From the NCBI RefSeq assembly GCF_002799245.1, contig NZ_NEQV01000001.1:186001-250000 (forward strand): a stretch of DNA of 64,000 nucleotides, in the 5' to 3' direction. Source of the stretch: Stenotrophomonas maltophilia. GTDB taxonomy: Bacteria > Pseudomonadota > Gammaproteobacteria > Xanthomonadales > Xanthomonadaceae. Below the pieces are notes generated by a model that saw only the letters and a list, made by a program, of their open reading frames with translations, had not been told where the DNA came from and did no database searches. The position numbers were made by a program, and so were the translations under genes. Of the stretch, positions 9,676 through 13,799 are shown in pieces; position 1 is the first letter of the stretch; each line of letters opens with the position of its first letter.

Positions 9676-11367
9676 TTAGGCCAGGGCCTGCTCGTGCACG
9701 CCGGCGATCGCGCGACCTGACGGATCTGCAGCCATGGCGAAGCTGGCGTCCCAGGCAATGGCCGCCGGCGACGAACAGGCGATCGACTTGCCCCCTGGTA
9801 CGGTTTCGGCGGCTGCACGGCTCGGGAAGAACTGCTCGAACAGGTGGCGGTAGTAGTACGCCTCCTTGGTCTGCGGCGGGTTGTGCGGGAAGCGCTTGTC
9901 GGCCGCCGCCAGTACGCGGTCGCTCACCTGTGCTTCGGCATGCGCCTTCAGCCCATCGATCCAGCCGTAGCCAACGCCATCACTGAACTGCTCCTTCTGT
10001 CGCCACAGGATGCTGTCCGGCAGGTAGCCTTCGAACGCCTCGCGCAAGACCGCCTTTTCGATGCGGCGGCCGCCAAAGCCGGCGCCGACCATCTTGTGCG
10101 CGGCATCGAAGCGCATCGCTACATCGAGGAACTCACGGTCCAGGAACGGCACGCGCGGCTCCACGCCCCAGGCCATCATCGACTTGTTGGCGCGCAGGCA
10201 GTCGTAGTTGTGCAGGGCATCGAGCTTGCGTACCAGCTCGTCATGGAATTCACGCGCGTCCGGCGCCTTGTGGAAATACAGGTAGCCACCAAAGATCTCG
10301 TCGCTGCCCTCGCCGGAAAGCACCATCTTCACCCCCATTGCCTTGATCCGCCGCGCCAGCAGGAACATCGGCGTCGATGCACGGATGGTGGTGACGTCGT
10401 AGGTCTCGATGTGGCGGATCACTTCCGGCAGCGCATCGAGGCCTTCCTCGAAGGTGTACTCGAAGCCGTGATGCACGGTGCCCAGCGCTTCGGCGGCGAT
10501 GGCAGCAGCGGCCAGGTCGGGCGAGCCCTTCAAACCGATCGCGAACGAGTGCAGCCGCGGCCACCAGGCTTCGGTCTGCCCCCCGTCCTCGATGCGGCGA
10601 CGTGCATAGCGTGCGGCTACTGCCGCCACCAGCGACGAGTCCAGGCCTCCGGACAGCAGCACCCCATACGGCACGTCGCTCATCAGCTGGCGCTCCACCG
10701 CATGCTCGAACGCCTGGCGCAGCTCGGCCAGATCGGCCTGGCGCCCCTGCACGTCGGCATAGTCGCGCCACGGCTGCTGGTAGTAGCGCACCAGCTCACC
10801 ACTGGCACTGTCGAAGTAATGGCCCGGCGGGAACTGCGCGACGTCGGCACAGGTATCAGCCAGCGCCTTCATCTCCGAGGCCACGCGCAGGCGCCCCTGG
10901 GCATCGTGGCCCCAGTACAAGGGCACCACGCCGACCGGATCGCGCGCCACCAGCACGCGGCCGCTGTCGCGGTCCCACAGCGCGAACGCAAAGATGCCAT
11001 TGAGCTGTTCCAGCCACTGCGCCGGCGAAGCGCCCTGGCGGTGCAGCGCGTTGATCACCTCGCAGTCCGAGCCGGTCTGGAAGTCGTAGGGGGTGGTCAG
11101 CGCCGCCTTCAATGCCTGATGGTTGTAGATCTCGCCGTTCACCGCCAGCGCCAGCTGGCCATCGGCCGACAGCAGCGGCTGCGAACCACCGGCCGGGTCG
11201 ACGATGGCCAGCCGCTCGTGGACCAGCAGCGCACCTTCGTCGAGGTATACGCCGCTCCAGTCCGGACCACGATGGCGTTGGCGCTGCGACAGTTCCAGCG
11301 CATGGCGGCGCAGGGCCGGAAGATCGTCACCGGCCTGCAGGCCGAAGATTCCGAAGATCGAACACAT
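9676..11367 (-). CDS. asnB: Asparagine synthetase B (glutamine-hydrolysing)
   Basis: Converts Asp, Gln and ATP to Asn, Glu, AMP and PPi. It is 563 residues. Cys2 (MCSIFGIFG) is the class-II amidotransferase nucleophile, with RHRGPDWSG and VNGEIYNH in the glutaminase domain. The ATP-pyrophosphatase loop LLSGGLDSSLVAA is at about 238-250, and GEGSDEIFGGYLYF follows. The start at 11367 has AGGAG six bases upstream. An Asn-rich leader ORF and attenuator lie 80-240 bases upstream on the same strand, so expression should respond to Asn-tRNA charging. A 71-bp hairpin terminates it. Confidence 0.97.
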   Translation of the reverse strand: MCSIFGIFGLQAGDDLPALRRHALELSQRQRHRGPDWSGVYLDEGALLVHERLAIVDPAGGSQPLLSADGQLALAVNGEIYNHQALKAALTTPYDFQTGSDCEVINALHRQGASPAQWLEQLNGIFAFALWDRDSGRVLVARDPVGVVPLYWGHDAQGRLRVASEMKALADTCADVAQFPPGHYFDSASGELVRYYQQPWRDYADVQGRQADLAELRQAFEHAVERQLMSDVPYGVLLSGGLDSSLVAAVAARYARRRIEDGGQTEAWWPRLHSFAIGLKGSPDLAAAAIAAEALGTVHHGFEYTFEEGLDALPEVIRHIETYDVTTIRASTPMFLLARRIKAMGVKMVLSGEGSDEIFGGYLYFHKAPDAREFHDELVRKLDALHNYDCLRANKSMMAWGVEPRVPFLDREFLDVAMRFDAAHKMVGAGFGGRRIEKAVLREAFEGYLPDSILWRQKEQFSDGVGYGWIDGLKAHAEAQVSDRVLAAADKRFPHNPPQTKEAYYYRHLFEQFFPSRAAAETVPGGKSIACSSPAAIAWDASFAMAADPSGRAIAGVHEQALA

Positions 11368-11450
11368 GGGGAAGCTCCTGTTGGGGGATTTCACGGGTGG
11401 GAAGGTGTTCGACCGGCCATCCAGGCCCGGGTGGGGCTGCGCCCGGGCAC

Positions 11451-11481
11451 AAAAAAACCCGCATCGACCGATGCGGGTTTT
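11451..11481 (-). terminator. Attenuator (rho-independent terminator) in the asnB leader
   Basis: On the minus-strand RNA, CCCGCAUCG (11477-11469) pairs with CGAUGCGGG (11466-11458), followed by seven U (11457-11451). It lies before the asnB start and after the leader ORF, so it must be read through for asnB expression. An A/T run on the other side could also let it terminate plus-strand RNA, but no plus-strand gene ends there. Confidence 0.88.
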
Positions 11482-11536
11482 CTGGTGTCCGGGCGTGTGT
11501 TGCTGTCTATCTACCCAGGGCGCAGTCCCGCATCGG
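11468..11536 (-). promoter_or_regulatory. Alternative antiterminator pairing in the asnB leader
   Basis: The RNA segment CCGAUGCGGG (11536-11527, codons 25-28 of the leader ORF) is perfectly complementary to CCCGCAUCGG (11477-11468), the 5' arm of the terminator. With one G-U pair the helix extends to 12 bp. It is mutually exclusive with the terminator and longer than it. The leader copy has the same sequence as the terminator's 3' arm, as in classical attenuators. A small hairpin (11552-11558 with 11539-11545, one G-U) just upstream presents Asn codons 20-21 in its loop and may be a pause site. Confidence 0.8.
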
Positions 11537-11608
11537 CCGCGCACGATTATTCGCGCGCAGATTATTGCGGTTGTTGTTATTGACGGCGGTGGCCAGGCGG
11601 ATCGACAT
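11507..11608 (-). CDS. Asparagine-rich leader peptide controlling asnB
   Basis: A 33-codon ORF beginning MSIRLATAV and continuing NNNNRNNLRANN. Eight of the twelve codons 10-21 are Asn (five AAT, three AAC). It ends in TAG at 11507, followed 30 bases later by the attenuator stem. A GTAGGG element 8 bases before the ATG is a plausible ribosome binding site. The predicted role is regulatory: when tRNA-Asn is uncharged the ribosome stalls on the Asn run. Codons 25-28 are then left free to sequester the terminator arm, and asnB is transcribed. Translation and regulation are inferred; the codon run and the alternative structures are seen directly. Confidence 0.82.
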   Translation of the reverse strand: MSIRLATAVNNNNRNNLRANNRARPMRDCALGR

Positions 11609-11700
11609 GGCATCGACCCTACCCCGGTTTCCGGCACCGCGCAACCGTTGCGTTGGCAACCACTCCCCGGAGCGCATAATGGCCCGCCCCGAAACGTGTA

Positions 11701-12585
11701 ATGGAAATGCAACACCGCAATGGACGCAACGCGGCGCTGGCCGCCCTGCTCTGCCTGGGCCTGGCCGCCTGCCAGACCCTGCCCCCACCCTCGCCCCTGC
11801 CGCCGGCCCAGCAGCAAAGCCTGGAACAGCGCGGAAGCGACGGCAGCTTCGAGGGGGCCTTTGATACCGCGGAAACCTTCGAGCGCTTCAACGATCCACG
11901 CGCCATCACCTACTACGAGCGTGCCGCAGCGGTCACGCCCTGGACCTTCCACAACACCAGGGCGGAAGAAGCACTGGGCCGGATCTGGGTCTCCGGCACG
12001 CTGCGGTATGCCGACAGCCCCCACATCAACCCGGCACCGGTGCTGCGCGCGTCCTGGCGACGTGGCGAACGCGCCTACCTGGCGGCGGCCTACCACGGCA
12101 ATCCCTATGCGTTCTACGAACTCGCCAAGGCCTATCGCCAGCGTGGCGACGCACAACAGGCGCTGCGCTGGGACCTGCGCGAAATGATCTACAAGCGCTA
12201 CCCGAGTTCATCATCGCGACTGCCGGATGCGGTGGCCGCACAGGGTGGCACCGTGCATCCGCTGGTTGCGCAGATCCAGCGTCGCGCCGAGCGCGGCGAT
12301 GCCGAAGCGCAGGTGGACCTGGGCGCGCTGCTGGAGAAGGGCGTGGGATTGCCGCGTGATCCGGCGCGTGCGCTGCAGCTGTACCAGCGCGCCGGGGAGA
12401 ACGGAAATGTGTTCGGCCAGTACTTCGCCGGACTGCTGCTGGGCCGCAGTGCGCCGGGCGTGGAGAAGGACACCGACGCAGCCGCACGCTGGTTCGCGCG
12501 GGCCGACGCGCAGCACTTCTACATGGCGGCGCCGAGCTACTGGGAAAAAGCGATCAAGCCGCCGTTCTTCATTTTTTCGGAATAG
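11701..12585 (+). CDS. Sel1-repeat-containing lipoprotein
   Basis: A 294-residue secreted protein with a lipoprotein signal ending LGLAAC (Cys about residue 24) and a Pro-rich linker. The C-terminal half has Sel1-like/TPR-like helices: AERGDAEAQVDLGALLEKGVGLPRDPARALQLYQRAGENGNVFGQYFAGLLL, then a second repeat, spanning about 200-275. Such proteins usually mediate protein contacts in the envelope. It is transcribed divergently from the asnB leader and convergently toward dapE. The start is either ATG 11701 or ATG 11707; neither has a strong ribosome site. Confidence 0.78.
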   Translation: MEMQHRNGRNAALAALLCLGLAACQTLPPPSPLPPAQQQSLEQRGSDGSFEGAFDTAETFERFNDPRAITYYERAAAVTPWTFHNTRAEEALGRIWVSGTLRYADSPHINPAPVLRASWRRGERAYLAAAYHGNPYAFYELAKAYRQRGDAQQALRWDLREMIYKRYPSSSSRLPDAVAAQGGTVHPLVAQIQRRAERGDAEAQVDLGALLEKGVGLPRDPARALQLYQRAGENGNVFGQYFAGLLLGRSAPGVEKDTDAAARWFARADAQHFYMAAPSYWEKAIKPPFFIFSE

Positions 12586-12671: not shown

Positions 12672-13799
12672 TCACACCAGCAGCCGTTCCACCAGCCGCT
12701 GGTACAGCCCCGGCAACGCCTCCAGATCGTCCACGCGCACGTTCTCGTCCACCTGGTGGATGCTCGCGTTGACCGGCCCCACTTCAATGCACTGCGCGCC
12801 CAATGGCGCGATGAAGCGGGCATCGGACGTGCCGCCACCGGTGCTTTCCTCCGGCGCACGGCCGATGTGCTCGGCCAGCACCGCACGCGCGGTGGCGCGC
12901 AGCGTGCCCTCCGGGGTGTAGAACGGTTCGCCGCTGCGATGCCACTTCAGCGTGTACTGCAGGCCATGCCGGTCCAGCAGCGCGGTGATGTCCGCTTCCA
13001 GCTTCGGCGCATCCCAGTGCGGGTTGTAGCGGATGTTGAAATCCACTTCGAGCTCGCCGGGAATCACGTTGTTGGCACCGGTACCGGCATGGATGTTGGA
13101 GATCTGCAGGCTGGTCGGCGGGAAACTCTCGTAGCCGTCATCCCAGCGCCGTGCACTCAGCTCGGCCAGGGCCGGCGCCGCCTGGTGGATCGGGTTGCGT
13201 GCCTTCTCCGGATACGCCACATGGCCCTGCACGCCCTGCACCCGCAGCTTGGCCGACAGGCTGCCACGACGGCCTACGCGCAGCAGGTCACCCAGCGTCG
13301 CGGTCGACGACGGCTCGCCGGTGATGCACCAGTCGATGCGTTGGCCGCGTTCGGCGAACAGGCGTGCGACGTGGCGCACGCCATCGATGGCATCGCCCTC
13401 CTCGTCGCTGGTGAGCAGCACCGCCAGCGTGCCGGGGTGATCGGGATGTGCGGCGACGAACTGCTCGGCAGCCACCACGAACGCCGCCACGCTGCCCTTC
13501 ATGTCGGCGGTGCCACGGCCATACAGCACGCCGTCACGGATCTGCGGCATGAACGGGTCGCTGGCCCAGGCCTCGCGCGGACCGGTCGGCACCACGTCGG
13601 TATGGCCCAGCAGCACCAGTACCGGCGCGCCCTGGCCATGGGTCGCCCACAGGTTGTCGACCTCGCCCAGCCGCAGGTGGTCGCACTGGAACCCGGCCTG
13701 CTTCAGGCGTGCTGCCAGCAGTGCCTGGCAACCGGCATCCTCCGGCGTTACCGAGGGCCGTGCGATCAGCTCGCAGGTCAGGTCGAGGACCGCGCTCAT
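12672..13799 (-). CDS. dapE: Succinyl-diaminopimelate desuccinylase
   Basis: Hydrolyses N-succinyl-LL-diaminopimelate in lysine and peptidoglycan precursor synthesis. It is a 375-residue M20 metallopeptidase. Zinc-site motifs are [11 protein letters not shown] (His about 67), [10 protein letters not shown] (Asp about 100), LTSDEEGDA (catalytic and metal Glu about 133-135) and the C-terminal His in [14 protein letters not shown]. It overlaps the upstream ArsC-like gene by 4 bp (ATGA). It is the last gene of the minus-strand map-glnD-dapD group. Confidence 0.96.

Follow-up and report, generated by a model that had tools for sequence, protein, structure and literature searches.

A short frame rich in asparagine codons precedes asnB in a 64,000-nt stretch of the Stenotrophomonas maltophilia genome (the window, meaning the whole stretch analysed), raising the question of whether translation of this frame could control the synthesis of asparagine synthase.

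The leader frame and its distribution

The asnB gene, the proposed target of regulation, occupies 9676-11367 on the minus strand and encodes the glutamine-hydrolysing asparagine synthase B. Its product scored 860.9 bits against the NF006949 asparagine synthase B model (cut-off 499), and the closest named record for AsnB came from Stenotrophomonas maltophilia, with 98% identity over AsnB. Upstream on the same strand lies the putative leader peptide ORF (11608-11507), whose translation gave 33 codons, MSIRLATAVNNNNRNNLRANNRARPMRDCALGR followed by a stop, with eight Asn at codons 10-13, 15, 16, 20 and 21. The 33-codon minus-strand ORF with eight Asn codons in the preliminary description was therefore read correctly. 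The leader stop is 139 nt from the asnB start and 29 nt from the start of an intrinsic terminator, which lies between the leader ORF and asnB; the run of codons in the leader is for the amino acid that the downstream gene product makes. When all six frames of the 64-kb window were scanned, eight Asn within 14 codons was unique to the leader, the runner-up having 5. This Asn density is not due to chance.

With a limit of E 1e-150, asnB was matched in 178 of the 198 family genomes, and upstream DNA was read in 149 of them. Of these 149 regions, 141 contained a frame reaching 4 or more Asn per 14 codons, compared with 1/149 on the reverse strand. Eight regions fell below 4 Asn. Six of them had a frame of typical form with 3 Asn, and another (L103) was counted as a miss, its leader being located further upstream (L291). 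The last one (L127/L290, genome G003) belongs to a family member with asnB and showed no recognisable leader, even in 1.1 kb. No leader was seen either at the divergent asnB copy L259, from a family genome outside the 149. For L118, L129, L132 and L146, which were included in the 149, the asnB start motif was not recognised, yet the frames were Asn-dense. Of 145 parsed family regions, 143 carried a terminator-like hairpin beyond the frame, which a strict rule recognised in 104 and a looser rule, whose count carries no chance rate, in 39. The leader was found in named records of Stenotrophomonas, Xanthomonas, Pseudoxanthomonas, Lysobacter, Luteimonas, Thermomonas and Arenimonas, and also in those of Dyella, Rhodanobacter, Luteibacter, Frateuria and Fulvimonas. 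The preliminary description had staked its reading on conservation of the Asn run and of two competing stems in relatives such as Xanthomonas, Lysobacter and Stenotrophomonas. Both were kept in the main, and the possibility that relatives lack them is contradicted by the Asn run in the family regions.

Further out in the order the leader was patchy, being present in 3/20 regions (L263, L266 and L273), most of which had a more distant asnB. Records from other groups (L202, L210, L240, L241, L243, L245 and L246, and likewise L248, L249, L251, L252 and L253) had no Asn leader, with at most 3 Asn per 14 codons; L250 has no upstream DNA and L212 just 60 nt of it. At 1e-120 or better, an asnB match was found in 5 of 275 genomes of the class. 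Four of these belong to the window's own family, and no leader was seen in the fifth (L274). A filter for Asn plus terminator was passed by 231 of 245 upstream regions, a set that includes duplicate genomes; one of the passes, L249 (Psychromonas), was a false positive by eye.

Covariance models were also searched. Model R1 matched in 11 of 230 genomes of the class, and two of these matches were asnB leaders of the same genus (G029 and G000). The R1 matches L277-L284 had no Asn leader by eye, nor had a second match in the window's own genome (L287); a further match was in G457. With model R2 and 31 genomes, the strongest match in the own genome was the asnB leader, and the top matches in other genomes were not all placed adjacent to asnB.

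Competing helices in the leader RNA

In the window, with all coordinates on the minus strand, segment 2 (CCGATGCGGG, 11536-11527) corresponds to leader codons 25-28 and provides the 5′ half of a putative antiterminator. Segment 3 (CCCGCATCGG, 11477-11468) was assigned from leader complementarity and pairing counts, and serves both as the 5′ arm of the terminator and as the 3′ half of the antiterminator. Segment 4 (GATGCGGG, 11465-11458) is the 3′ arm of the terminator and is followed in the sequence by a run of seven T (11457-11451), giving an overall terminator span of 11477-11451. Segments 2 and 3 are exact complements over 10 nt, as the preliminary description had claimed for codons 25-28 and the terminator arm. 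It had also described a terminator with a T7 run and a 9-bp stem. The terminator and its T7 run were recovered, but the stem is 8 bp (11477-11470 with 11465-11458, loop of 4 nt), since the loop would shrink to 2 nt with a ninth pair; A-U pairs prolong this stem into the T7 run. In a terminator consensus scan of the window, the asnB-leader terminator was missing from the list, probably because stem counting ran into the T run. The stretch 11440-11620 folded 6.5 sd below dinucleotide shuffles, a value to which the terminator itself contributes part. This stretch folded as 1:2 plus 3:4, suggesting that termination is the default state.

Covariation was examined in two alignments, A1 with 39 type A sequences (...NNRARPMR...) and A2 with 44 type B sequences (...NNNNRNNASLP(R/Q)AGD and stop), which were thinned from 76 and 71 loci; 84 further loci were of neither type. 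Terminator (3:4) pairs formed in 99.7% of cells in A1 and 100% in A2, and antiterminator (2:3) pairs in 91.1% and 82.0%, while slid controls gave 18-46% and 29-39%. Among the outer 2:3 pairs of A2, two of eight formed in less than half of the rows. The type B antiterminator is lengthened by a stem starting just before the stop (A2 columns 71-75/104-108), which was paired in 81.8% of cells. Moreover, complementarity between a leader and the terminator arm of the same region exceeded the shuffle mean in 142/143 regions, and in 127/143 it exceeded the mean obtained with arms from other genomes.

One pair of A2 is particularly informative, that of base 65 in the leader with base 121 in the arm. 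It was GC in 28 sequences and AU in 16, and was unpaired in 0/44. The same arm base within the terminator formed CG in 28, UG in 13 and UA in 3, so that G-U is tolerated in 13/44. The change of the leader base turns CGG into CAG and thus Arg into Gln, altering the peptide and keeping the RNA pairing. Pairing that is kept despite such a residue change, with a matching change in the arm, is a clean case of selection on the RNA over the peptide. The asnB tree used for this pair had 56 entries, from which L331/L136 and L195 (no parsable leader tail) and 3 identical proteins were removed. On the resulting tree of 51 proteins, at least 6 changes were counted at the leader position and at least 6 at its partner in the arm, and the two bases agreed in 51/51 rows; the parser accepted G and A in the leader and C and T in the arm, and no other bases at these positions. 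Just 3 pairs of rows counted as independent when well-supported branches were required, a number that leaves a sign test underpowered (p 0.25).

The antiterminator helix, which is mutually exclusive with the terminator, is conserved by covariation, some of the shuffle measures not being exceeded. For 2:3 in A2, 3:4 in A2 and 2:3 in A1, none of the 500 shuffles reached the observed proportion of paired cells or the observed covariation score. On the other measures, the number of double-change pairs was reached by 296/500 shuffles for 2:3 in A2, 182/500 for 3:4 in A2 and 74/500 for 2:3 in A1, and the number of pair types by 500/500 and 434/500 for the two A2 helices, respectively.

A third helix involves segment 1, which would act as a protector by pairing with the region of segment 2. 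In the fold, its outer part, CCGCA (11570-11566), which contains an Arg codon within the Asn run, pairs with 11532-11528, and its inner part, CUGCGCGCG (11560-11552), forms the protector hairpin with 11545-11537. In the 39 type A sequences, the outer 1:2 helix CCGCA/UGCGG connects the Arg codon CGC to segment 2 and was paired in 96.4% of cells, with no pair changed on both sides. The inner hairpin that it encloses consists of two helices, paired in 72.4% and 86.5% of cells. In the 44 type B sequences, the 1:2 helix CGCC.GCC/GGC.GGCG comes directly after the last Asn codon and was paired in 97.4% of cells, with both-side changes at 3 pairs in four cells. Both types therefore have a protector 1:2 helix, whose formation could be blocked by a stalled ribosome, and these helices resemble those of classical attenuators. 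The predicted 1:2 helix could explain why a conserved Arg codon interrupts the Asn run.

Ribosome position, asparagine codons and the predicted promoter

At the level of sequence, the comparison shows a conserved Asn frame, a terminator, covarying 2:3 and 3:4 helices, a 1:2 helix and a predicted promoter at a fixed distance; stalling, termination, the exact start site and the direction of the response are what we infer. Very probably, the element controls asnB by ribosome-mediated transcription attenuation, with charged tRNA-Asn as the signal. The preliminary description had proposed Asn attenuation of this kind, and the conserved Asn frame and the covarying competing stems support it. In such an attenuator, transcription would begin at the leader ATG and ribosomes would load onto a leaderless RNA. 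When Asn-tRNA is scarce, the ribosome would halt in the Asn run and occupy segment 1, leaving segment 2 free for the 2:3 antiterminator, and the polymerase would proceed into asnB. When Asn-tRNA is plentiful, the ribosome would move onto segment 2, or 1:2 would form behind it; with segment 2 sequestered, 3:4 would pair and transcription would end about 158 nt from its start.

The effect of ribosome position was estimated with an equilibrium fold of 201 sequences, taking the RNA up to segment 3, before segment 4, and placing the stall in the Asn run. The mean arm-leader pairing probability was 0.645 without a ribosome, 0.717 with a stalled ribosome and 0.463 with the ribosome at the stop. The stalled value exceeded the at-stop value in 150/201 sequences and the no-ribosome value in 81/201, and the fold favours 2:3 even without a ribosome. 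For the window's own leader, the value was 0.80 in all three states, and therefore the switch there must rest on timing. The preliminary description had warned that a ribosome at the stop codon would cover segment 2 only partly. This caveat stands for the window's sequence, in which segment 2 ends 17 nt before the stop and the fold is identical across ribosome states. The distance from the end of the best-paired leader segment to the stop was at most 10 nt in 99 of 143 family regions, in which a terminating ribosome would cover the segment; it was 11-14 nt in 17 and at least 15 nt in 23, and in 4 the segment ended past the stop. Where this distance is long, timing would decide, in that 1:2 would precede segment 3 or the ribosome would remain on segment 2. 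The window's leader has its final two Asn codons 9 nt ahead of segment 2, which a ribosome stalled at these codons may itself cover.

The structures described above would serve any slow ribosome, and attenuation could in principle follow leader translation as such, as a sensor of general stress or coupling, rather than the Asn codons. AAU, the rarer Asn codon, is indeed over-used in the leader, as would suit a generally slow frame. Counted over the 35 codons that precede the leader stop, in related loci and with short leaders adding sequence from before the ATG, leader Asn codons were AAT in 328 and AAC in 351 of 679 cases, compared with 107 and 806 of 913 for the asnB genes at these loci, and the AAU share was higher in the leader than in asnB in 102/107 loci. 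On the other hand, Asn is retained among very different leaders that precede an asparagine synthase. Moreover, the Asn codons are most variable at the third position, with values of 0.438 versus 0.228 and 0.223 for the five Asn columns of A2. A general translation sensor is thus considered quite unlikely.

Within attenuation by the Asn codons, the over-use of AAU could reflect relief from G+C-rich structure equally well as a decoding effect. A tgt-family gene is present in the window's genome. That the leader senses queuosine modification of tRNA-Asn in addition to its charging, or the speed of AAU decoding, is a speculative extension to which we give little weight; if true, asnB would be tuned by queuosine status via a leaderless RNA.

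The supply of Asn-tRNA was also considered. AsnRS was over the cut-off in 13/13 genomes (the window's genome and 12 relatives), and no match to gatB or asnA was found in the window's genome. Given AsnRS and no gatB match, Asn-tRNA should be charged from free Asn. Two further proteins of the own genome, L002 (647 aa, L002:1498-3441) and L003 (638 aa, L003:91-2007), were over the TIGR01536 asparagine-synthase cut-off, with 466.4 and 325.1 versus 267.1 bits; both scored higher, though below the cut-off, with an amidotransferase family. Because of these two TIGR01536 proteins, AsnB may not be the sole Asn source.

Upstream of the leader, a -35 element TTGCGC is predicted at 11644-11639 and, from the alignment profile, a -10 element TAGGGT at 11621-11616, both on the minus strand, the latter 7 nt upstream of the leader ATG. 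Conservation of the promoter was assessed at 195 distinct leader starts, which were left from 231 regions after excluding duplicates, short upstream pieces and two regions without an in-frame ATG. With starts picked as the first ATG within 52 codons, a rule that is wrong for some rows, TTG at -37..-32 of the leader ATG was present at 170/195 starts versus 7.3% at shifted origins, and the -35 and -10 elements jointly at 137/195 versus 0.2%. With 7-8 nt between the end of the -10 element and the ATG, the RNA is expected to start at or beside the ATG. The leader transcript thus probably begins at or adjacent to the leader's own ATG, i.e. it is leaderless. A Shine-Dalgarno-like string was found at 41/195 leader starts versus 208/231 asnB starts, and the strings before leaders are probably often the type B -10 element CAGGAT itself. 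A transcription start downstream of 11507, which the preliminary description had named as fatal to its reading, is contradicted by this conserved predicted promoter just 5′ of the leader ATG. Three features go beyond that description, namely the 1:2 hairpin located where the Asn run ends, the fixed-distance promoter and the over-use of AAU.

The promoter also bears on the idea that the hairpin merely terminates upstream dapE and that the Asn-rich frame is incidental. In Xanthomonas-type loci such as L020 and L022, a frame ending like dapE by eye does adjoin the promoter. In the window, however, a divergent gene (11701-12585, plus strand) separates dapE (12672-13799, TIGR01246) from asnB. Moreover, the predicted promoter would intervene between dapE and the hairpin, the Asn frame is conserved, and the 2:3 pairing is both conserved and covarying. 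Termination of dapE is accordingly a highly improbable account of the element.

Boxes GTTGC, GCAAC and GTTGC were noticed at 11641-11660 (minus strand) of the window, adjoining and overlapping the -35 element, and also in type A relatives. In Xanthomonas-type loci, the GTTGC/GCAAC boxes overlap the apparent end of dapE. They may be an operator or a relic.

Relation to known leaders

The asnB leader shares several features with the his, thr, leu, phe, trp and ilv attenuators: a short ORF with many codons for the amino acid that the pathway makes, alternative 1:2, 2:3 and 3:4 helices, and a terminator with a T run upstream of the biosynthetic gene. Unlike them, it would sense Asn, is probably leaderless and has no match at an Rfam gathering score. 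The mechanism appears to be classical ribosome-mediated attenuation, and Asn appears to be new as the sensed amino acid. No Asn attenuator was found in the open-access literature searched; an earlier prediction may exist, for example in the 2004 survey of proteobacterial attenuators. The terms "asparagin" and "asnB" had 0 occurrences in the main text of PMC2965389. If the proposed attenuator is true, asparagine joins the amino acids sensed through translation of a leader peptide.

In Firmicutes, Asn genes are under T-boxes; the type of gene and the signal (uncharged tRNA-Asn) would be shared with the asnB leader, as would control at the level of transcription attenuation. In a T-box the RNA itself binds the tRNA, whereas the asnB leader has a translated Asn run, and the T-box covariance model gave no match at the gathering threshold in the window and 20 relatives. 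The Rfam library includes T-box. Control of asnB by a small-molecule riboswitch or a tRNA-binding, T-box-like leader, for which the T-boxes of Firmicutes Asn genes are the precedent, has a negligible probability, as no Rfam family reached its gathering threshold in the window and 20 relatives and the best weak hits were to other attenuators, Thr_leader with 22.8 of the required 55 bits and Leu_leader with 20.3 of 50. The host order comprises plant-associated, soil and clinical bacteria, for which translational sensing of Asn would represent a second solution to the task of the Firmicutes T-box.

Leaderless attenuators have been described elsewhere. In mycobacteria, leaderless poly-Cys uORF attenuators precede Cys biosynthetic genes and act by a mechanism that is not known to be terminator-based; they share the leaderless run of a single amino acid with the asnB leader and differ from it in using Cys. 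Another precedent comes from Sinorhizobium meliloti, which belongs to another class of bacteria. According to PMC7298713, the trpL attenuator RNA of this species has the leader ORF's ATG at its very 5′ end and is thus leaderless, but it uses Trp codons and encodes a 14-residue peptide. The probable leaderless start of the asnB leader offers a handle on how initiation at a 5′-terminal AUG couples to attenuation.

A leader of similar build was found in the same genome before ilvC (NF004017, 512.2 bits), with Ile/Leu/Val codons and a terminator. Its frame, ending in RSILVLVLITQPTGAGRASV and a stop (L285:1253-1382 = G000:C2:361552-361681, minus strand), was the next own-genome match of model R2, and it is likely a branched-chain attenuator of the same architecture as the asnB leader. 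Model R2 also matched L286:1006-1082 of the own genome, which is a tRNA-Asn(GTT) gene with its terminator; this match is probably a coincidence.
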